This document shows positions 27,257 through 62,289 of a stretch of 64,000 bases of DNA, in pieces. Under the pieces are notes generated by a model, which did not search any database, had not been told where the DNA came from, and saw only the letters and a list, made by a program, of their open reading frames with translations. Source of the stretch: Leptothermofonsia sichuanensis E412 (GTDB lineage Bacteria; Cyanobacteriota; Cyanobacteriia; Leptolyngbyales; Leptolyngbyaceae); NCBI RefSeq assembly GCF_019891175.1, contig NZ_CP072600.1, forward strand, positions 5,394,001 to 5,458,000, given 5' to 3'. Position 1 is the stretch's first letter. Every line of letters begins with the position of its first letter. The position numbers and the translations under genes are program-made.

Positions 27257-29506
27257 TCATCTACTGCTCTGTCGCGGATAGGCATGAACAAAGGCGATCG
27301 TGCTTTTCCATTTTACTGATTGATTTTGCAATCGTTCAAAAGCATGGCGAATTCGTGTAATTTCAGCTTCAGAAAGTGCTTTTTTTAGATAAAAGGAATA
27401 GGTTGGCTGAGTATCGCTACCAGGCTCAAACCACCGATTAATTATAGTTTGTGTGATTAATAACTCAGTCGAGACAGGCTCAATATCAATGGTTGTGATG
27501 AAGTTGAGTTCTGAAAACAGGTTCTCTATATCTTCAATGCCCCAATTCCTCGCGGAATCAGCATGGTGAGCATAAATGTTCTCCTCTGTCTGAACGAGCT
27601 TTTTGTATAGTTTTGCACTTAATCCCGTGAACTTAAGTAATCCCGTGGACTCAAGTAAATGGTAGAGCCGCTGGGCTTCACGGGGTACCACTTCTGCCAG
27701 GGTAATGGTTCCATCTGGCTGAAGGTAGTTCACCAGAGATTGAATCATCTGGGGCCTGTCCGGCTCCTTGATTAAGGCATTGCGCCCAATGATGCGGTCA
27801 AACCGAATCCCCGGTACCTGGCTGGTTAATACCTCCGCCAGATTGGACAACTTCGATCGCAACACAATTGGACGAGATAAAGCTGGCAATGCCGCAGCCT
27901 GTTCGGTTAAAGCGATCGCATCGGTTTCATTGTGAACGCAGGCATAAACGCCTCCTTCTGGAACCTGACGCACCGCTTCCCAGGTTAGCAGTCCACTACC
28001 TGCATTCAGGTCCAGTATGACATGGTGGCGCTGAGGGTTGGCGAGCGAGAAGAGGCGATCGCGCACGGCCCCCAATCGTTCCCCGGACTGTCCCAGCGTG
28101 CGTTGCAGCCAGCGTTCCCGGGCTGAATCAACCGCACTAAACGTCAGAATTTCGGGATCGGCAATCCCACTTCCTTCTACCAGTGCGGCCAGTTGAGCTT
28201 CCCGCTTACGGGTCACCTGATGGCGAATGGTCGCTTCGTAACCCTGGTCAGAGGGTTGATAAAACACCTGCCCTTGCAGACTGGTCGGCAGGTACTGCTG
28301 GGCAACCCAGTGATCCCGGTAGGCATGGGGATAGAGATAACCCGCTCCATGCCCGAATCCTTTTTTGTCCCGATTGGCATCTCTCAATGGGGCAGGCACC
28401 TCTGCCTCCCGCTCCTGCTCGACGGTAGATAGGGCATCGAAAAAGCCCATCACACTATTGGACTTTGGTGCCGTCGCCAGATAGAGAGTTGCATGAGCCA
28501 GGGGATAGCGTCCCTCCGGCATCCCTACGCGATCAAATGCCTGGGCACAGGCGTTGACCATCGCGATCGCATGGGGGTCTGCCATCCCCACATCCTCGCC
28601 TGCCAGAATCAACAAGCGACGAAAGATGAAGCGGGGATCTTCGCCCGCATAGACCATCCGCGCCAACCAGTACAGCGCAGCATCTGGATCTGAACCCCGT
28701 ATACTTTTGATGAAGGCACTGATGGTATCGAAGTGGGCGTCGCCCTCTTTGTCGTAGAGCACTGCCCGTTGTTGAATGGACTCTTCGGCCACAGCCAGGT
28801 CAATCCAAATCACTCCATCCGAATTCGGAGCAGTAGTTTCGACGGCGAGTTCAAGGGCGTTGAGCAATGTCCGGGCATCTCCATTCGCCACATTGACCAG
28901 ATGGTCTAATGCGTCTGGATCCAGGTGTACATTTCGTTGACCATAGCCCCGCTCCTGATTGGTTAAGGTCTGATGTACTACCTTTCGCAGATCCTCTTCC
29001 TCTAAGGGTTTCAGTTGAAAGATGCGCGATCGCGAAACCAGTGCTTTATTCACCTCAAAATAGGGATTCTCAGTGGTTGCTCCAATTAAAATCACCGTCC
29101 CATTTTCGACCCAGGGCAACAATGCATCCTGCTGTGACTTGTTAAAGCGATGCACTTCATCCACAAACAGAATCGTTCGCTGGTGGTACATGCCGCGCTT
29201 TTCCTGGGCAATGGCGATCGCCTCCCGGATTTCTTTGACCCCGGCTAAAACGGCATTAATTGAGATGAAATGGGCCCTGGTTGTATTGGCAATTACTCGC
29301 GCCAGGGTCGTTTTCCCGGTCCCTGGAGGACCATAGAAAATCAATGACGATAACTGATCTGCCTGAATCGCGCGGCGTAGAAGCCGACCCGGACCCACAA
29401 TCGCATCCTGCCCCACAAACTCATCCAGAGTTCGAGGGCGCATCCGTGCAGCTAATGGTGCCTCTGCTTCCGTGATTTCCTGACGGTGCTTTTCAAACAA
29501 ATCCAT
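27257..29506 (-). CDS. rarA: RarA/MgsA-type AAA+ ATPase fused to a methyltransferase-like domain
   Basis: 749 residues from ATG 29506. The N-terminal ~430 residues are replication-associated recombination protein RarA: RTLDEFVGQDAIVGPGRLLR, Walker A FYGPPGTGKTTLAR, Walker B ILFVDEVHRFNKSQQDALLP, sensor 1 ILIGATTENPYFEVNKAL, then the clamp-loader-like C-terminal domain with KGFGHGAGYLYPHAYRDHWV. After it, from about residue 490, comes a Rossmann methyltransferase-like fold: VILDLNAGSGLLTWEAVR (motif I) and IRFDRIIGRNAL. RarA acts at stalled replication forks. I recall this fusion from other cyanobacteria. The upstream in-frame codons to 29545 are repeat sequence (see 29506-29543) and I exclude them. 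Confidence 0.9.
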   Translation of the reverse strand: MDLFEKHRQEITEAEAPLAARMRPRTLDEFVGQDAIVGPGRLLRRAIQADQLSSLIFYGPPGTGKTTLARVIANTTRAHFISINAVLAGVKEIREAIAIAQEKRGMYHQRTILFVDEVHRFNKSQQDALLPWVENGTVILIGATTENPYFEVNKALVSRSRIFQLKPLEEEDLRKVVHQTLTNQERGYGQRNVHLDPDALDHLVNVANGDARTLLNALELAVETTAPNSDGVIWIDLAVAEESIQQRAVLYDKEGDAHFDTISAFIKSIRGSDPDAALYWLARMVYAGEDPRFIFRRLLILAGEDVGMADPHAIAMVNACAQAFDRVGMPEGRYPLAHATLYLATAPKSNSVMGFFDALSTVEQEREAEVPAPLRDANRDKKGFGHGAGYLYPHAYRDHWVAQQYLPTSLQGQVFYQPSDQGYEATIRHQVTRKREAQLAALVEGSGIADPEILTFSAVDSARERWLQRTLGQSGERLGAVRDRLFSLANPQRHHVILDLNAGSGLLTWEAVRQVPEGGVYACVHNETDAIALTEQAAALPALSRPIVLRSKLSNLAEVLTSQVPGIRFDRIIGRNALIKEPDRPQMIQSLVNYLQPDGTITLAEVVPREAQRLYHLLESTGLLKFTGLSAKLYKKLVQTEENIYAHHADSARNWGIEDIENLFSELNFITTIDIEPVSTELLITQTIINRWFEPGSDTQPTYSFYLKKALSEAEITRIRHAFERLQNQSVKWKSTIAFVHAYPRQSSR

Positions 29507-29543
29507 AGAGGAATTGCTCTGTGTTCTCTGGGCCTCTGTGGTC
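29506..29543. repeat. CCTCTGTG-type repeat, copy 2, touching the rarA start
   Basis: On the minus strand the 20 bases CACAGAGCAATTCCTCTATG are identical to 37319-37338. The final ATG of this repeat copy is the start codon of the RarA-like gene. Confidence 0.7.
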
Positions 29544-29570
29544 AAATATCCGGTTATAAACTCCTCATTC

Positions 29571-53366: not shown

Positions 53367-53972
53367 AGAAAAATCACCTGCAAAAGGTCAGGGCGTTCAG
53401 GATGGATCGAATGGGGTGAAAGCAGACAGGGGCAGAAACCGCTTCTTAAGAAAGTTTTCTCAAAATCTGATTACAAATTCTGGTAAAGAAGCCTTAACGA
53501 TTCTAACGTGTTTGTTTACCGATCTGGGGTGCAGGAAACCAACTTCTGAATTTTCTCTGTCAGCAGGTTCCAGGAGGTCTTCGCTGTCTACCCAACCGAG
53601 GTGATGGGTGCATTTGCCCACCGCCAAGCATCGGCGAGGAGAAAGGGGGGCAGGTCCGCCTGTTCATGCACGAGGACGAACAGATCGCTACAGGATCCGA
53701 GTTGTATTTCAAAGTCGGGGCAATGAAACCACTCAAACCTATGCGATCGCCTGGTGGACGATGCCCGTGCCATCAAAGTAGGTTAAGAAGGGGATCGCAC
53801 GGATTTCGCGGTAACTGAGGGGTAAAGAAGGGGAGAAGGGCGATCGGGATTTTAGCCAGACCCAGTGGTTTTCCTTGTGGTGCTTTTACGGAAGCCTTTG
53901 TGAATCTGGGCTAGAATCTGGGCAACCTTTTTAAGGGTGAACCATTCAAACAGGACAGAAAAGGTCAGACCC
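53367..53972. other. Spacer upstream of the three-gene cassette, with a decayed gene
   Basis: 606 bp between divergent typA and the cassette. About 53585-53825 on the minus strand reads as broken coding sequence (see the pseudogene entry). The last ~150 bp (53820-53972) should contain the cassette promoter. I see no obvious operator. Confidence 0.4.
53585..53825 (-). pseudogene. Short frameshifted coding remnant, family unknown
   Basis: On the minus strand one frame gives YREIRAIPFLTYFDGTGIVH before a stop. The adjacent frame then continues FEWFHCPDFEIQLGSCSDLF and VLVHEQADLPPFLLADAWRW over 62 codons. The protein-like composition in two consecutive frames suggests a former gene broken by a frameshift near 53740. 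I do not recognise the family. Confidence 0.3.
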
Positions 53973-54836
53973 ATGCAAGCAATTGAACTGAAGTTTCTGT
54001 TGAAATTACTGGGTTTTCCAAATTACCGGGCAAAAATCACAGATGACAAACTAAAGCCTAATAAGGGAACTACTGCCCCAGACCGGGACAGAATTTGTCG
54101 TGAACTCAGCAAGCGAGGTATTGTAAGTTACTCTCGCGAAGTCGGTAAGTTCAAGATTAACCCTACAGGAAAGAATTTGCTTAACGCAAACGATGCAGAA
54201 ATCCCCTTAACAGATGAGCACTTTAAGATTCTGAAAGCTTGTGAAAAAGAGACGATTACACCGGGCAAAGTAAAAGGTGTTGCCCCAGAAAGACGACAAT
54301 CTGTAATTCAGGACCTGGAAGCAAAAGGGTTGATCAAAGTTGAAAAGGAAGTAATTAAAGAGGTTTGGCTAAATGATAAAGGGCATGAATATCTGTTAGA
54401 AGATTATCTTCCTGGTGGGGGAGACCAACCTGCCATCAGCTTAAACATGCTGAAAAACTACCTTGTCTTTTTACGAAAAGCGGCCCAATTTTCTGCTGAG
54501 AAACCCACCACTCAAATGCCCTCCCGGGTTGAGGAGGATGCAAACTCCACTCCGATTTCAGACAAGCCTGACGATGAAACGATTCTGGCAACCATTAAAT
54601 CGTTGGATAAACAACTGAATACAGGTAACTATCTACCAATTTTTCATCTTCGCCAAAAGTTGCAACCTCCCTTATCCAGGGATGAGTTAGATCAGGCACT
54701 TTATCGCTTACAGCGGCAGAACAAAGTTGAACTCAGTTCTCTGGTGGAATCAATTCGCTACACACCTGAACAAATTGAAACTGGGATTCCTCAAGACGCT
54801 GGAGGTCCCCTGTTTTTCCTGGTTGTGAATGGCTAG
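53973..54836 (+). CDS. Multi-winged-helix protein, first gene of the cassette
   Basis: 287 residues from ATG 53973; a GTG at 53937 is also in frame. I predict three winged-helix units. The first (about 1-60) has ICRELSKRGIVSYSREVGKF. The second (about 65-140) has LTDEHFKILKACEKETITPG, VIQDLEAKGLIKVEKEV and VWLNDKGHEYLL. The third (about 205-265) is near the C-terminus: LDQALYRLQRQNKVELSSLV. An acidic, Pro-rich linker separates the second and third. Winged-helix proteins of this shape act as DNA-binding or bridging subunits of multi-protein ATPases. The next gene starts 58 bp later on the same strand. I do not recognise the family. Confidence 0.75.
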   Translation: MQAIELKFLLKLLGFPNYRAKITDDKLKPNKGTTAPDRDRICRELSKRGIVSYSREVGKFKINPTGKNLLNANDAEIPLTDEHFKILKACEKETITPGKVKGVAPERRQSVIQDLEAKGLIKVEKEVIKEVWLNDKGHEYLLEDYLPGGGDQPAISLNMLKNYLVFLRKAAQFSAEKPTTQMPSRVEEDANSTPISDKPDDETILATIKSLDKQLNTGNYLPIFHLRQKLQPPLSRDELDQALYRLQRQNKVELSSLVESIRYTPEQIETGIPQDAGGPLFFLVVNG

Positions 54837-54894
54837 ATCTGTAAGCACCCCAAGTTTTTGACCCTGTTCCAAAAATCCAGTTGGAGGCAGTAAC

Positions 54895-56847
54895 GTGGCA
54901 ACCATTGATGAAATCATTCAGCAGGAAGTGAACCCCTTTGATCCGGTCACCTTTAAGACTGGAAACTTCTGGCAGGAAGAGGATAACGACTTTGATTCAA
55001 CGGTCGAATCGATTCATCAAGAGGCGATCGACCAAATTACTCAAGTCGTCAATCAGGTTGCAAAAGATCACCATACCCGCACCATTCTGCTTGCGGGAGA
55101 TGTGGGTTCTGGTAAAAGCTATCTCCTCAAACGGTTAAAGCAAAGTCTGAATGATAAAGCCTTCTTTGTCTACATTCCGCCCTTTGTAGACAGTGATTAC
55201 ATCTGGCGGCATACCCTGCGAAAAACGGTTGACAGCCTGATGCACAAACCGGACGGGAAGGACGAGTCTCAATTGCTGCTCTGGCTTAAAAGTCTGTCTG
55301 TCTTCAAAGAAGGCAGTTTGATGAAAACACTCCTGGGTGAGCGAAATTTGTTTATTAATAATTTCCAGAGTGCTTACCCATCAGGCATCTTTCAGGCAAG
55401 AGAGTTTTTTGGGGTGTTGTTTGATCTGACAAATCCAGAGCTTTACTTCACTGCCTGTAGCTGGTTGCGAGGAGACGATCTGGATGAAGAGGATCTGAAA
55501 GCTCTAAAGGTAAAAAAATCCATTGATAGTGAGGCGGCAGCCCAGGGGATTCTGTCCAATTTGGGCAAAATCTCTGTTTCAACCTACCCGATTGTGCTCT
55601 GTTTTGATCAGGTTGAAAGTAAACAGTTACCAGATGGTTCAGCCGATATTCAACCTGTTTTTAACATCAGTACATCCTTCCATAACGAATATCTGAAGAA
55701 CTTTCTAATTATTATCAGCATTGTTACAAATACCTGGAAGCAAAATAGCGATCGCATCCAGCAATCGGATAAAGATCGAATTGAAAAGTCTATCCTCTTA
55801 AAACCAATTACCCTTGACCAGGCGGAATCACTCTGGGCAAATAGACTATCTCTATTGCATCGTCAGGCAGATCCAAAGCCTGAATCAAATATCTACCCAT
55901 TATCTAGAGAAACTTTAGAAGACAAATTTCCCGGAGGCAAAACAACTCCTCGTCTGACGCTTGTACTGGGACAGAAATTATTTTTGCATCACAAGCTAGA
56001 TGGTGAGGAACCCAAACCGGATACAGTCGCTTTCTTTAAACTCTTATGGGAACAGGAACTTAGAAAAACTGAACAGAAAGTAACCAGAATTCGCCATTTT
56101 TCTGAACCGGAATTAATCTCAATGTTGAGCAGAGCGTTGACTGCTCTACAGGTAAAAGAAATTCGGCTAAAGCTCCTACCCAGTAAGGCATTTGCCAGCT
56201 ATTCTTTCGCCTACCAGGATCCCAGGCAAAATAGAAAGACGGGTCTTGTCTGGGCAGAAAATCCAGGTACATCGTTTTTCCACACAATGAATGCCTGTCA
56301 AAAAGTTATGGAAGAGAAAAAATGTCAGGCATTATGCCTCATTCGGGCAGAAGGGATCGGCAAAGCCAATAGCAAGAGCTACGGTACTTATAAAAAGATT
56401 TTCATTGATGGAGCGAACAACCAGCACATTAAACCAGATCTTGAGTCGGTTCACTATCTGGCAACCTACGATCGCCTGGTCAACTCCGTCCATTCACAGG
56501 AACTGGTTGTTGCGGGAGAAACGATTAACCTCAGAGAGCTTGAAACGCTGGTTCGGAATGCGGAGGTATTAAAAGAATGCCGTCTTCTGCAAGATTTGGG
56601 GATTTATCCTCCCATCAAACCTCCTCCACTAGATCGAGAAAAAGAGTTTCTCCTGAGTTTTATTAAAATCCACCACTTAATCGCAAGAAGGGTTGCCGCT
56701 CAAAATACCACCAGCCAGTTCCCCCGGCTAAATGACACTCAAATGGAGCAACTGATTCAAGAGCTTTGCGAGGAAAATCTCATCAGAATTTTGGATGCAT
56801 CGGTGCCACTGGATGAACAAATTATCTGTTTAGTACCCAAACAGTAA
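54895..56847 (+). CDS. Large P-loop ATPase, second gene of the cassette
   Basis: 650 residues with a GTG start, supported by GGAGG at 54883-54887 seven bases upstream. Walker A is LLAGDVGSGKSYLLKRL (about residues 65-81), and Walker B is PIVLCFDQVE (232-241; Gln follows the Asp). A sensor-like IIISIVTNTW (272-281) and a helical lid (ILLKPITLDQAESLWANRL) follow, the layout of an AAA+/STAND-type ATPase such as ORC-like or BrxC-like proteins. The C-terminal ~240 residues contain KTGLVWAENPGTSFFHTMNA and a conserved-looking ALCLIRAEGIGKANSKSYGT, which I cannot assign; a nuclease-like or sensor role is possible. It ends with a helical segment. No transmembrane span. Confidence 0.8.
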   Translation: MATIDEIIQQEVNPFDPVTFKTGNFWQEEDNDFDSTVESIHQEAIDQITQVVNQVAKDHHTRTILLAGDVGSGKSYLLKRLKQSLNDKAFFVYIPPFVDSDYIWRHTLRKTVDSLMHKPDGKDESQLLLWLKSLSVFKEGSLMKTLLGERNLFINNFQSAYPSGIFQAREFFGVLFDLTNPELYFTACSWLRGDDLDEEDLKALKVKKSIDSEAAAQGILSNLGKISVSTYPIVLCFDQVESKQLPDGSADIQPVFNISTSFHNEYLKNFLIIISIVTNTWKQNSDRIQQSDKDRIEKSILLKPITLDQAESLWANRLSLLHRQADPKPESNIYPLSRETLEDKFPGGKTTPRLTLVLGQKLFLHHKLDGEEPKPDTVAFFKLLWEQELRKTEQKVTRIRHFSEPELISMLSRALTALQVKEIRLKLLPSKAFASYSFAYQDPRQNRKTGLVWAENPGTSFFHTMNACQKVMEEKKCQALCLIRAEGIGKANSKSYGTYKKIFIDGANNQHIKPDLESVHYLATYDRLVNSVHSQELVVAGETINLRELETLVRNAEVLKECRLLQDLGIYPPIKPPPLDREKEFLLSFIKIHHLIARRVAAQNTTSQFPRLNDTQMEQLIQELCEENLIRILDASVPLDEQIICLVPKQ

Positions 56848-56986
56848 CCAGATAACCGTGATGTGAACCTGGCAGCCAGGATCTCCGGCATCTCGTTGAT
56901 CTGCAAATTGGCTGAAGCAAATCTTACAGATACCAGGGATCTGGGGATGACTGCACACCGAAGATGAACAAGAATACTCCCTTTTA

Positions 56987-59566
56987 ATGCCCTATTTAAC
57001 CCAATCAACGGATATTCAGGTAGCCATTCATCAATTATCTGCCTATTCAATTCTCTGGTTGGATACAGAAACGGCTGAATGGTGGACACCCCACCCCAGG
57101 CTATCCCTGATTCAGGTACTGGCGAATCGGGATGATCTTAATGGAGATTCAGTTTATCTGCTGGATGTACTCAATCAGCCAGATCTGGTGCAGCTTTTCG
57201 TTGACCGAATCATGAGCAATGCCGAAATTGAAAAGGTCTTTCACAATGCCAGTTATGATTTGAAATTTCTAGGGAAAACAGATGCGAAAAATATTACCTG
57301 TACCTTAAAACTTGCAAAGCAACTCCCAAAAGCTGTTTTAGGAACCTCGAACTGTAAACTCAAAACACTGGCAAAAGAGCTTTGCCAGTTTACAAATGTT
57401 GATGCGGAACAACAGGGAAGCGACTGGGGCAGACGTCCTCTTGACGCAAAACAGCTACTTTACGCCAGAATGGACACAGTTTATCTGGCTCACGTCCATC
57501 AACATTTACTCAGGCTAACAACCCCAAAACCTCCTGAAACTGTGAGTAAAGCGAACCAAACCCAAGTGCCATCTTTCAGCGTTACCAAAGTTCGGGTTGC
57601 CTTTGAATGCGCTCGCCTGTTCTACTTAGTGCACCATTTCGGCGGAATGGCGGTCTTTCTCCCCAATGGGCAATCTGGTGGACTCGGTACTGCATTTCAT
57701 GATTTGTCGGATCAGTTTGTCAGGACGGCACTGAAAGAACCCCAGTTTCAGGAATTATTGAAGCCCGTACCTGACCACCTGAAGGCTGAGGAAGTGGCTA
57801 CCAGGATGCAAGAGCAGTTCTACAACCTGGTTTTCTTTCCCCATCTCCAGTCTGTGATTCAGCAAGATCCAGGTAAGGCAAATGCGCTCCATCAGCTCTG
57901 GCAGGGTTTAACGGGATTAATCGAGCGGTGGGCGCAATTGCTGGTGAATAATCGGCGTTACTGCTCTGCTGAGGAGGTAATCAGTAAAACCTTTCTGGCG
58001 CAGGAACTCAATGTTAAGCATCATTTTGCTTTACCCAACGGTGGTCAACAGTTGGTTAAAGGACGCTTCGATAGCCTGGTCTACGATTTCGAGAAGCATC
58101 GTCTTTGCGTGGTAGAGTACAAAACTTACCAGTCGCCCGATCAATCTGCTCAACTTGCTCAGGTTGCCCTTTATAGCTACATGCTGAAGGAACGGGTCGG
58201 GGTTCCGATTAACTCGGCTGTCTATAGTGTTTTGCCGGATTGGAAAGAATTGACATTTACCTGGGATGAACTGGAGCAGACGGTTCACCAAATGATTCCG
58301 CATCGATTACAGCAGATGCAACAGTGGGCAGCGTGGGAACAGGGACAACCTGATCCTCCTCCCCCTACAGCCCAATCTCATCTCTGCGAGATTTGTCCCC
58401 AGCGCACTAAATGCCAGACCTTTTTTACATCTACTGAACCCGAATCAAAAACGAAGACATCTAAAAAAGTTATCAATCCCAGACCCAGGCCCTCTGAGCC
58501 TGTCACCCCGTCTGTTACTTCAGAAATTGAAGCGATCGCTCACCAACTCGTCCAAACCCTTCAGGCATTTGGCATTGATGTAGAACATCAGGGGGTTGTG
58601 CTGGCTCCTGCATTTATTCGGGTCAAGCTGAAGCCCAATCTTGGGGTTAAAGTGGGTTCTATTCTCAAATCATCTAATGACTTGCGGGTTCAGCTTGGCT
58701 TGACCTGCCCACCCCTGATCGCACCCCAGGCGGGATACGTCAGCGTGGACCTGCCCCGTCCTGATCGTCAGGCAGCCTATTTTGATCGATACATTCAACA
58801 CCAGACCCTACCACCAACAGGACCGATTAAAATTGCCATCGGGGTTAACCTCGATGGTCAACTGCTGGAAGCCGATCTGTCTGACCCCAATACCTGTCAT
58901 TTCCTGGTGGGAGGCACCACAGGCAGTGGTAAGAGTGAGTTTTTGCGATCGCTCCTCCTCAGTCTCCTCATAAGACACGCTCCCAATCATCTCAAAATTG
59001 CCCTGGTCGATCCAAAGCGCGTCACCTTCCCAGAATTTGAACAGATGCCCTGGTTGTATCAGCCCGTGGTCAAAGACAGTGAGCAGGCGATCACTCTGAT
59101 GGAAAGTCTGGTGCAGGAAATGGATTCTCGCTATCGGCTATTTGAGGTAAACCAGTGCAATAGTCTGAGTAGCTATAACCAGAAATTTAATCAGCAACCC
59201 AATAAGTTACTGCCGCGCATCGTTTGCATTTTTGATGAATACGCTGATTTCATGGCAGAAAAGGAAACCGCTAAAGCACTGGAGTTAAGCATTAAACGAT
59301 TGGGAGCAATGGCACGGGCAGCTGGTATTCATCTGATCATTGCTACCCAGCGTCCAGAAGCAAAAATTGTGACTCCTGTCATTCGCTCTAACTTGCCCGG
59401 ACGGGTTGCCCTGCGGACTGCCAGTGAAGCTGATTCGATGATTATCTTAGGTGGCAGGCAAATTGAAGCAGCCTATCTGCTGGGGAAAGGTGACCTCCTT
59501 TATCAGGCAGGGGCACAACTGATGCGATTGCAAAGTTTATTTGCGCCCAACATAGAGCTTCCCTGA
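56987..59566 (+). CDS. DEDDy exonuclease - Cas4/RecB-like nuclease - FtsK motor fusion
   Basis: 859 residues, three enzymes in one chain. (1) Residues 1-178: RNase D/WRN-type 3'-5' exonuclease with WLDTETAEW (D26, E28), FHNASYDLKFL (D91) and YARMDTVYL (Y159, D163). (2) About 195-480: PD-(D/E)XK nuclease of Cas4/AddB type with GRFDS (D362), VVEYKTY (E377, K379) and QVALY (Q392, Y396); C208, C467, C470 and C476 (CEICPQRTKC) are placed like a 4Fe-4S cluster. (3) About 510-859: FtsK/SpoIIIE ATPase with Walker A VGGTTGSGKSEFLRSL (641-656), Walker B IVCIFDEYADF and the IIATQRPEA motif. It has no N-terminal membrane domain and no C-terminal gamma domain. Likely moves along DNA while degrading it. 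Confidence 0.88.
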   Translation: MPYLTQSTDIQVAIHQLSAYSILWLDTETAEWWTPHPRLSLIQVLANRDDLNGDSVYLLDVLNQPDLVQLFVDRIMSNAEIEKVFHNASYDLKFLGKTDAKNITCTLKLAKQLPKAVLGTSNCKLKTLAKELCQFTNVDAEQQGSDWGRRPLDAKQLLYARMDTVYLAHVHQHLLRLTTPKPPETVSKANQTQVPSFSVTKVRVAFECARLFYLVHHFGGMAVFLPNGQSGGLGTAFHDLSDQFVRTALKEPQFQELLKPVPDHLKAEEVATRMQEQFYNLVFFPHLQSVIQQDPGKANALHQLWQGLTGLIERWAQLLVNNRRYCSAEEVISKTFLAQELNVKHHFALPNGGQQLVKGRFDSLVYDFEKHRLCVVEYKTYQSPDQSAQLAQVALYSYMLKERVGVPINSAVYSVLPDWKELTFTWDELEQTVHQMIPHRLQQMQQWAAWEQGQPDPPPPTAQSHLCEICPQRTKCQTFFTSTEPESKTKTSKKVINPRPRPSEPVTPSVTSEIEAIAHQLVQTLQAFGIDVEHQGVVLAPAFIRVKLKPNLGVKVGSILKSSNDLRVQLGLTCPPLIAPQAGYVSVDLPRPDRQAAYFDRYIQHQTLPPTGPIKIAIGVNLDGQLLEADLSDPNTCHFLVGGTTGSGKSEFLRSLLLSLLIRHAPNHLKIALVDPKRVTFPEFEQMPWLYQPVVKDSEQAITLMESLVQEMDSRYRLFEVNQCNSLSSYNQKFNQQPNKLLPRIVCIFDEYADFMAEKETAKALELSIKRLGAMARAAGIHLIIATQRPEAKIVTPVIRSNLPGRVALRTASEADSMIILGGRQIEAAYLLGKGDLLYQAGAQLMRLQSLFAPNIELP

Positions 59567-59575
59567 TATAGTAGG

Positions 59576-59657
59576 GGCATTGCTGATTTCCGGTATAAAA
59601 ATAAGGCTGAATGATTTGGAACTTCATCCTAAATCATTCAGCTTTTTAGCAACGCTG
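59576..59657. repeat. Palindromic MITE-like element after the cassette
   Basis: Starts GGCATTGCTGA and ends TAGCAACGCT, the same ends as 12028-12108, with a strong central hairpin. It begins 9 bp after the stop of the fusion gene and supplies its terminator. Confidence 0.65.
59606..59647 (+). terminator. Intrinsic terminator of the three-gene cassette
   Basis: Arms GCTGAATGATTT and AAATCATTCAGC around a GGAACTTCATCCT-type loop, followed by TTTTT. It lies 40 bp after the last stop codon of the cassette. Confidence 0.85.
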
Positions 59658-61038: not shown

Positions 61039-62289
61039 TTAACTCAAAAGATGTTGGTGGCTTTCGTCGCGGTGTTTTTTCAGGTAATTCATGAAGGGGG
61101 TTCCTCCGGTGCCAATGTTGGGGTCGTTATGGGAGTGGGCAGCTTGCTGGTGGATGTAGCGGGCGGCAAATTCTAAATGTTTGGTTCTGAATTTTTCAAT
61201 CAGGGAAACACAATCGTTGTACAAATCTTTCAGTTCCGGTATCTGTTCCTTATGGGTTTCAACAAAGGAACGCAGGGTGGAACGTTGCTCAATGACTTCG
61301 ACAAAGGCACGGTGTTTGGGTGGCATATACTGGCGCATTTCCATCAGAAATTGCCACAGGATGTCGTGTTCGTGGGTGATGTTGAATAGGGCATCCATTG
61401 TGGGGACGATCGCGCTCTGGGCACCCGTTTCTCCCCGGAACTGTTGGGGGGTTCCCTGGTAAGCTTCGACGCCTTCATAAAGCAGTCCATCGGGGAGAGA
61501 GGGGTTATTTTTCCAGCCATGAATGTAGGGTCGCACGCGGTTGTAGTAGATGTAGGGGTCGCAGCCTTCAGGCATCCGGTTCATGGTGGTGTTGATTTCA
61601 GTCCAGGCGGTTCGGATGGTTTTCAGGGCGGGCATGAGGGCGATCGCGTTATCGCTGGCAATGGCTTCCAGGATTGAGGGGATGGTTGCCAGAGCAGGGG
61701 CGGCTTTGGCTTCTATGTCAATGTGGATCAGAATAAACCAGTCTTCATCCAGCCCGCCGAGGAAGTTCTGCCCAATGATGATGTTGCCGATGGCGATCGG
61801 TCTGGTTGCATCAATGCGGAGCCAGTTATCCATTGCGTAGGAAGCGTAGGATAAAACGGGAGGGCGTCCCAGGTGATGGGCAATCTGGTGGAAGGGAACT
61901 GCCAGGTTACGGGGCAGAACATTGACAGGAGGGGATTCGCCCCAGACGTAGGCGTGGGTGAGGTAGGCATACGCCTGCATGGCGCGGCGGAGTTGGAGGT
62001 CATTGAGCGAATGTTGCTCGATCGGAATTTCTGGGAGCCGTTGCAGTCTGTGGCGAATCTGTCCGAGGGTGAGCCATTTGGGTAGTTGGGAAGCAGTTGA
62101 CTGAATGGGTTGAAACGCTTCTGGTAGGGGGATGTTGACGGGGGGTTGAGGTGGCAGGAAACCGGTTTCCTGGTTGATCTGGTAATCTTCAAGGTTAAGC
62201 GAAAAGATGGGCTGTTCTTTAAATGTGGGGAGAACCATAATTTTATCAATAGAAATTTTGGAATGAGGCGGGGTCTGGCTGAAAGGCAA
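61039..62289 (-). CDS. Indoleamine 2,3-dioxygenase family heme protein
   Basis: 416 residues. Family hallmarks are LRRAMQAYAYLTHAYVWGES in the small domain and DWFILIHIDIEAKAAPAL in the large one. The proximal heme His lies in RTKHLEFAARYIHQQAAHS, followed by NIGTGGTPFMNYLKKHRDES. The family opens the indole ring of tryptophan (or related indoles) with O2 to give N-formylkynurenine. It is on the same strand as the acyl-CoA-synthetase-like gene (92 bp upstream) and the aminotransferase downstream. Bacterial IDO proteins are widespread but poorly characterised; some act on other indoles. Confidence 0.93.
   Translation of the reverse strand: MPFSQTPPHSKISIDKIMVLPTFKEQPIFSLNLEDYQINQETGFLPPQPPVNIPLPEAFQPIQSTASQLPKWLTLGQIRHRLQRLPEIPIEQHSLNDLQLRRAMQAYAYLTHAYVWGESPPVNVLPRNLAVPFHQIAHHLGRPPVLSYASYAMDNWLRIDATRPIAIGNIIIGQNFLGGLDEDWFILIHIDIEAKAAPALATIPSILEAIASDNAIALMPALKTIRTAWTEINTTMNRMPEGCDPYIYYNRVRPYIHGWKNNPSLPDGLLYEGVEAYQGTPQQFRGETGAQSAIVPTMDALFNITHEHDILWQFLMEMRQYMPPKHRAFVEVIEQRSTLRSFVETHKEQIPELKDLYNDCVSLIEKFRTKHLEFAARYIHQQAAHSHNDPNIGTGGTPFMNYLKKHRDESHQHLLS

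Follow-up and report, generated by a model that had tools for sequence, protein, structure and literature searches.

The window analysed here is a 64,000-nucleotide stretch of the genome of the cyanobacterium Leptothermofonsia sichuanensis E412 (assembly GCF_019891175.1, contig NZ_CP072600.1, positions 5,394,001 to 5,458,000), part of a single-contig genome of 6.43 Mb. It contains three same-strand genes, here called P1, P2 and P3, which form one unit ended by a strong terminator hairpin. A first-pass annotation made from the letters of the window had described them as encoding a winged-helix protein, an ATPase and a nuclease–nuclease–FtsK fusion, a description that Pfam bears out for P2 and P3, and predicted models for P1 and P2. 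The features of the cassette, in window positions, are:

53973..54836, + strand: P1, predicted 287-residue tandem winged-helix protein, ATG start at 53973 (open reading frame list, homologue alignment)
54883..54887, + strand: GGAGG resembling a ribosome binding site, 7 nt ahead of the GTG of P2 (sequence)
54895..56847, + strand: P2, 650-residue ATPase with a predicted Orc/Cdc6-type AAA+ fold, GTG start (Pfam, predicted model)
56987..59566, + strand: P3, 859-residue exonuclease / PD-(D/E)XK nuclease / FtsK fusion (Pfam, profile matches)
56996..57514, + strand: DEDD-type 3'-5' exonuclease of P3, residues 4-176 (PF01612, DNA_pol_A_exo1, E 4e-25)
57572..58417, + strand: PD-(D/E)XK nuclease of P3, residues 196-477 (PF12705, PDDEXK_1, E 2e-16)
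58514..58756, + strand: FtsK alpha domain of P3, residues 510-590 (PF17854, FtsK_alpha, E 1.4e-7)
58817..59356, + strand: FtsK/SpoIIIE motor of P3, residues 611-790 (PF01580, FtsK_SpoIIIE, E 6e-41)
59603..59645, + strand: intrinsic terminator hairpin (folding compared to shuffles)

A cassette of three genes

The layout agrees with the annotation: spacers of 58 bp (P1–P2) and 139 bp (P2–P3), a GGAGG/GTG start for P2 and an intrinsic terminator after the last gene. The hairpin begins 36 nt past the P3 stop, terminates in a U run, and has a folding energy of -21.9 kcal/mol, compared to a shuffle mean of -6.7 (z -6.6; none of 200 shuffles was equal). It was not listed by a simple terminator scan, which gave 10 sites for the region and 7.5 for shuffled sequence (standard deviation 2.8), a difference within one standard deviation. 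The P1 frame is open from a GTG at 53937, which would add 12 residues; because these are absent from most aligned homologues, translation more likely begins at the ATG (53973).

The first two genes had been judged by eye to be AT-rich relative to neighboring typA, and this is correct: GC-content is 0.429 for P1 and 0.434 for P2 (P3, 0.483), compared to 0.530 for typA and 0.506 for the window. The accompanying suggestion of transfer did not survive. In other cyanobacteria the same genes also fall below their neighbors in GC-content (P2 at 40 of 41 loci, P1 at 33 and P3 at 36), and low GC is therefore a trait of the genes themselves and provides no evidence for recent transfer.

Predicted functions of P1, P2 and P3

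The conserved motor frame of P3 extends beyond the Pfam stretch to the C-terminus, and the P3 profile matches FtsK in the Protein Data Bank (PDB) at 3e-63. In an alignment of the window protein with 44 relatives of 640–950 residues (chosen, like the 55 aligned P2 proteins, as long open frames), D362, E377 and K379 of the PD-(D/E)XK nuclease are present in all 45, as are the Walker A and B motifs, the sole deviation being one T644S. The exonuclease domain is kept in 37 of the 45, and in these 37 proteins D26, E28, D91, Y159 and D163 are invariant. Cysteines C208, C467, C470 and C476 are likewise found in 45 of 45, with a spacing that we take to resemble that of the iron–sulfur nucleases Cas4 and AddB; the PD-(D/E)XK nuclease probably carries iron–sulfur. 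When P3 was compared to the models of PADLOC, only the FtsK end matched strongly (SspH, 226 bits; mad8, 91 bits).

P2 is recognized by Pfam as AAA_22 (E 3e-7) and weakly resembles AAA and KAP ATPases in sequence; Walker A K74 and Walker B D238 are present in all 55 aligned proteins. Its profile gave weak and partial matches only to sequences of the PDB. An AlphaFold model (predicted local distance difference test, pLDDT, 88) is more informative: the top Foldseek match is to ORC (E 1.2e-5), and the best matches are mostly to ORC/Cdc6, with other AAA+ proteins below. VIA comparison gave Z 15.0 for ORC (root-mean-square deviation, rmsd, 14.2 over 301), Z 14.4 for archaeal Cdc6 (rmsd 4.0 over 241), Z 13.9 for TnsC and Z 13.4 for BrxC. 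On the basis of this model we predict that P2 is, at the level of the fold, an Orc/Cdc6-type AAA+ ATPase. In the full-length model the AAA+ part is followed by an alpha-beta domain (about residues 376-575, or more narrowly about 400-510), and this in turn by a winged-helix-like part at the C-terminus; the alpha-beta domain has no E-x-K-like motif, and its profile did not match that of the P3 nuclease.

For P1 there was no Pfam family above its cut-off, no Foldseek match at E 0.001, and only weak, partial matches of the profile to PDB sequences. Its AlphaFold model (pLDDT 89; predicted template-modeling score 0.59) has winged-helix-like units in the N and C parts. By VIA, model range 1-144 matches a MarR-type regulator (Z 10.4, 71 residues, rmsd 2.4) and range 196-286 the winged helix of ScpA (Z 8.2, 69 residues, rmsd 3.3). 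P1 is accordingly predicted, again at the level of the fold, to be a tandem winged-helix protein.

Relationship to known systems

The annotation held that this combination fits no known system. Judged by its domains and predicted models, it does fit a class described by Rakesh, Aravind and Krishnan (NAR 2024, PMC10853773), the Orc/CDC6-coupled 'HerA/FtsK capture' systems, which were defined in silico and for which a counter-invader role was proposed. In the sections of that paper drawn on here, the neighborhoods comprise an Orc/CDC6 ATPase with an inactive restriction endonuclease (REase) domain located between the AAA+ core and a C-terminal winged helix, an active REase (of which there are two families), a HerA/FtsK protein, and a protein of 2–4 winged helices. 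Some of the FtsK proteins have FtsK-alpha, taken from cellular FtsK, and some are fused to a 3'-5' exonuclease. The cassette would share with these the Orc/Cdc6 ATPase and the multi-winged-helix protein (P2 and P1, both at the level of the fold), the FtsK motor with FtsK-alpha, the fused 3'-5' exonuclease, a PD-(D/E)XK nuclease predicted to be active from its retained catalytic residues, and the existence of related operons in which an Orc/Cdc6 ATPase goes with another nuclease. It differs in that its tree and site indicate mainly vertical inheritance (see below), whereas the neighborhoods in PMC10853773 are called mobile. The main text of that paper contains no occurrence of cyanobacteria, although its figures and supplements may hold examples, and its section 22 makes no mention of a four-cysteine set in the nuclease. 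A 2026 paper on BREX (PMC12839542), which cites PMC10853773 as its authors' own, returns to the theme and, in the part consulted, places BrxC among Orc/Cdc6-clade ATPases. We found no experimental test of the class in the open-licence PMC literature.

DndFGH and SspFGH offer a second comparison. Both have a three-gene logic in which a P-loop ATPase is combined with an FtsK/HerA motor, and the sources consulted give winged helices for DndG (PMC10853773) and the same logic for SspFGH (PMC8092258). The cassette might thus be the restriction arm of a phosphorothioate system of this kind, and the 226-bit match of the P3 motor end to SspH, together with the shared arrangement of ATPase, winged-helix partner and motor, speaks in its favor. 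However, that match is confined to the FtsK end, the nuclease is a different one, and P1 and P2 show no sequence likeness to these systems beyond the P-loop: P2 matches DndF models only at residues 40-88 (16.8 bits), SspF is matched in one of 12 members at 0.023, and P1 matches no Dnd or Ssp model. DndFGH itself is often decoupled from phosphorothioate modification genes (PMC10853773, in the part consulted). DndC has no match in the L. sichuanensis genome at 1e-10, and does not track the cassette, being above cut-off in 17 of 28 carrier and 10 of 24 non-carrier genomes (DndC was the gene searched, not Ssp genes; G001, with a truncated P3 and no P2 match, is left out of all carrier and non-carrier counts). 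These figures show no dependence on DndC, and we consider a phosphorothioate role the least probable of all explanations.

Two further systems share parts of the design. Wadjet (JetABCD) has in common with the cassette the logic of a winged-helix subunit, an ATPase and a nuclease; the Pfam matches of P1–P3 differ in including neither SMC, as the annotation had noted, nor a Toprim nuclease. BREX shares the fold similarity of P2 to BrxC (predicted model, Z as above), but there is no PglZ among the three genes and, again as annotated, no methylase.

Distribution among cyanobacteria

A scan of genome contigs with the P2 sequence alone gave nothing; a scan with a profile gave 207 relatives. The best 80 were retained, corresponding to 78 named loci, all cyanobacterial; because only these were kept, distant forms are under-represented. 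At E <= 1e-100, P2 relatives occur in 11 of the 58 genomes of the relatives set, counting that of L. sichuanensis.

Among 386 genomes drawn from the cyanobacterial phylum, P2 is present in 48 (one of which, G056, holds a remote sister) and P3 in 40; 39 have both and nine have P2 only. The sole genome with P3 only, G094, holds a remnant, and a few of the 39 are broken (G106, G348 and G428). In the best-sampled family (f28, probably Nostocaceae) P2 is found in 81 of 145 genomes, in single copy in 79, and carriers and non-carriers are mixed within the same genus. Copies may be under-counted, the phylum searches having scored only three (P2) and two (P3) candidates per genome, and the family search up to eight. 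The annotation had named tight co-occurrence with a patchy phylogeny as support, and both are apparent; P2 accompanies P3 in all but one genome, yet the cassette is far from universal. It is dispensable and often lost.

P3 directly follows P2 at 51 of the 78 named loci, with P1 in front at 48 of these, so that the genes are most often neighbors; the median gap is 55 bp for P1–P2 and 19 bp for P2–P3. An alternative form, P1–P2–P2' without P3, occurs in 17 places, many in Oscillatoriales. Twenty-two of the 27 named loci without an adjacent P3 were followed up. In 21 genomes with P1–P2 and no adjacent P3, a P3 motor is found elsewhere in eight (some broken or partial), the exonuclease only in four, and neither, at 1e-40, in nine. 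Two genomes (G103, G278) have open P2 and P3 frames 0.9–2.1 Mb apart; in G151, the one genome with unlinked genes in which P1 was checked, the distance is about 150 kb and P3 lacks the exonuclease. The retention of both P2 and P3, far apart, in three genomes points to a shared function beyond linkage.

Inheritance and chromosomal site

The annotation had proposed to test whether the three genes move together. A quick tree of 53 P3 proteins (frames shorter than 600 residues left out) does not support free movement: all 25 Nostocales fall in one clade, and orders change eight times, compared to a minimum of seven and a shuffle average of 16.4 (11 rows without a named order being uncounted). Against purely vertical descent, Oscillatoriales alone need four changes, a few rows of the tree are out of place, and G015, from the same family as L. 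sichuanensis, branches beside the Nostocales, away from the window. A common site is seen in many Nostocales and some Oscillatoriales: glycosyltransferase-like genes flank the cassette on one side and ParA on the other, often with the isoleucyl-tRNA synthetase (IleRS) gene beyond (names by eye). The agreement of the P3 tree with taxonomy and the common site in Nostocales weigh against the label 'mobile', though moves near the lineage of the window and one plasmid copy point the other way. As a rule the cassette seems to be inherited vertically, with frequent loss.

The moves are seen in close relatives. At typA, the ends of contigs in G001 and G014 limit how far the site can be compared. A truncated P3 lies at a different site, behind transposase genes, in the sister species G001: at L051:1745-4403 a Cmr1-like (RAMP) fragment and two transposase-like genes (by eye) precede the N-terminally truncated P3. 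In the close relative G006 the cassette is at yet another place. An XPB/Rad25-type helicase gene is found directly upstream of it (L031:5538-7076), and a RecN-like gene (by eye) also lies upstream. The plasmid copy, P1–P2–P3 without the exonuclease, is on a conjugative plasmid of Pseudanabaena sp. PCC 7367 (L173), with a SNF2 helicase and a SWIM protein alongside.

These observations bear on the notion that the cassette has no immune role and is what remains of a conjugative or transposon system. Although one copy is on a conjugative plasmid and PMC10853773, in the part consulted, calls such neighborhoods mobile, inspection by eye of the gene families common to at least four of the 78 loci revealed no recurrent relaxase, integrase or transposase family, and neither the largely vertical tree nor the conserved catalytic sites would be expected of a leftover. 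We regard this explanation as very improbable.

A different possibility is a chromosome-segregation module with the adjacent ParA. P3 is an FtsK-type motor, and ParA follows it on the same strand after 98-237 bp at 12 of the 78 named loci; of the 41 complete loci, 22 have a ParA at some distance downstream. However, ParA is present in 17 of 24 genomes without the cassette and in 18 of 28 with it, occurs also at cassette-free sites, and has no match at 1e-30 in the L. sichuanensis genome. ParA, being equally common without the cassette, belongs to the site and is ruled out as a fourth gene. The segregation reading is disfavored and improbable. At two of nine non-carrier sites around ParA (L165, L166) an FtsK fragment is visible by eye, confirmed for G094 by the P3 search. 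At L058:12166-14622 a ParB_N protein adjoins a ParA ATPase to which an HSDR_N nuclease-like domain is fused (Pfam, L058 only), and by clustering or by eye this two-gene module recurs near cassettes and at their site (L055, L059, L068, L069, L073, L076, L165, L172 and others).

Rates of divergence differ among these genes. Mean identity over 28 pairs from eight loci is 0.645 for P1, 0.588 for P2, 0.685 for P3, 0.734 for ParA and 0.802 for IleRS: P1 and P2 diverge faster than the other three.

Sister cassettes

Full-length P2 relatives also occur with other nucleases (profile probability 99.9 over 598 columns and 99.7 over 569). One arrangement, apparently a sister system, consists of a short winged helix-turn-helix protein, a P2-like Orc ATPase and a DUF1802–Mrr_cat-like protein (L042, L043, L044, L045, L050; the third gene was Pfam-tested in L042–L044). 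In another, a DEDDh exonuclease is fused to a P2-like ATPase (L046, L047, L048, L049; Pfam-tested in L046 and L047). The fusion adjoins a RAMP gene and CRISPR-like repeats (the repeats by eye) in L047 (G049), and Thoeris ThsB_TIR and ThsA_Macro in L048 (G045). At L037:7276-12605, an AbiLi/RloA-like ATPase and RloB/AbiLii come immediately after a P1–P2 pair that lacks P3.

Function of the cassette

As the probable explanation we favor a machine of the Orc/CDC6-coupled HerA/FtsK capture kind that degrades invading DNA; the defense role suggested in the annotation is plausible. P1 and the Orc/Cdc6-like P2 ring would find, bind or encircle duplex DNA, load on it, and bring in the P3 motor. As an FtsK-type ring, P3 would drive the DNA past the PD-(D/E)XK nuclease and the 3'-5' exonuclease that it carries itself, and the DNA so pumped would be destroyed. 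We infer the assembly of the complex, the order of the steps and invading DNA as the substrate. There is no modification gene within the three-gene cassette. Defense is favored because of the class to which the cassette may be assigned, the contexts of the sister cassettes, the pattern of loss and the rapid evolution of P1 and P2.

Several observations weigh against such a role. The largely vertical P3 tree and fixed chromosomal site are unlike those of typical defense islands, and the scan turned up no relative in viral contigs. PADLOC has no model for P1 or P2, nor one that spans all of P3. Known defense genes, whose enrichment the annotation had proposed to test, are not clearly more frequent nearby: in random samples of 110 of 297 genes within 2.5 kb and 110 of 254 beyond 4 kb, the best PADLOC family among the models listed was found three times near and once far. 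In total 75 models were matched near and 40 far, counts that refer to models and not proteins, many being overlapping methylase or kinase models.

Repair or DNA-end processing stays a serious rival, albeit an unlikely one, given a P3 tree that is largely vertical, a site that is fixed and no clear enrichment for defense genes. On this view the cassette would do the work of RecBCD/AddAB by means of an FtsK pump; it would be passed on with the chromosome, and some niches would not require it. Like AddAB/RecBCD, P3 couples a DNA motor to a nuclease with cysteines that are presumably of Cas4/AddB type; it differs in that the motor is FtsK and no UvrD-type helicase is among the Pfam matches of P1–P3, and we know of no Chi-recognition part in the cassette. 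The L. sichuanensis genome has no RecB match at 1e-30, P3 is its only FtsK-like motor at E 0.001 (the same holds in 18 of 19 genomes searched), and the helicase and RecN-like genes upstream in G006 would suit a repair function. Against this, RecB is present in six of 28 carriers and five of 24 non-carriers, which shows no dependence on RecB, P2 is restricted to a minority of the phylum, and sister cassettes adjoin CRISPR-like and Thoeris loci.

The two roles could also be combined. In genomes of which most, as sampled, have neither a RecB match nor another FtsK motor, an Orc/Cdc6-like loader might place a two-nuclease FtsK pump on DNA ends or foreign DNA, so that a mainly vertically inherited, RecBCD-like gatekeeper, not a mobile defense island, both repairs broken chromosomes and destroys invaders; we hold this to be doubtful, a shade more so than repair by itself.

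New here are the cyanobacterial distribution, the co-occurrence including decayed forms, the unlinked P2 and P3 in three genomes, and the mainly vertical inheritance. For a class predicted from sequence alone, cyanobacteria provide a test case of unusual clarity: a single conserved operon of three genes, with catalytic sites that are conserved too, which nearly every carrier in the best-sampled family has only once and which some members of a genus have and others naturally lack, in hosts amenable to genetics. If the favored explanation of counter-invader degradation is correct, many filamentous cyanobacteria would possess a stable, chromosomal, DNA-degrading immunity, and Orc/FtsK machines could pass down like housekeeping genes.

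Other features of the window

Two further features of the window are of interest. A gene of the indoleamine 2,3-dioxygenase family (61042-62289) lies beside an AMP-binding enzyme, where the GC skew is strong (about 0.3). At 27260-29545 is a 762-residue MgsA/RarA ATPase, the last ~300 residues of which have no Pfam match at 1e-6.

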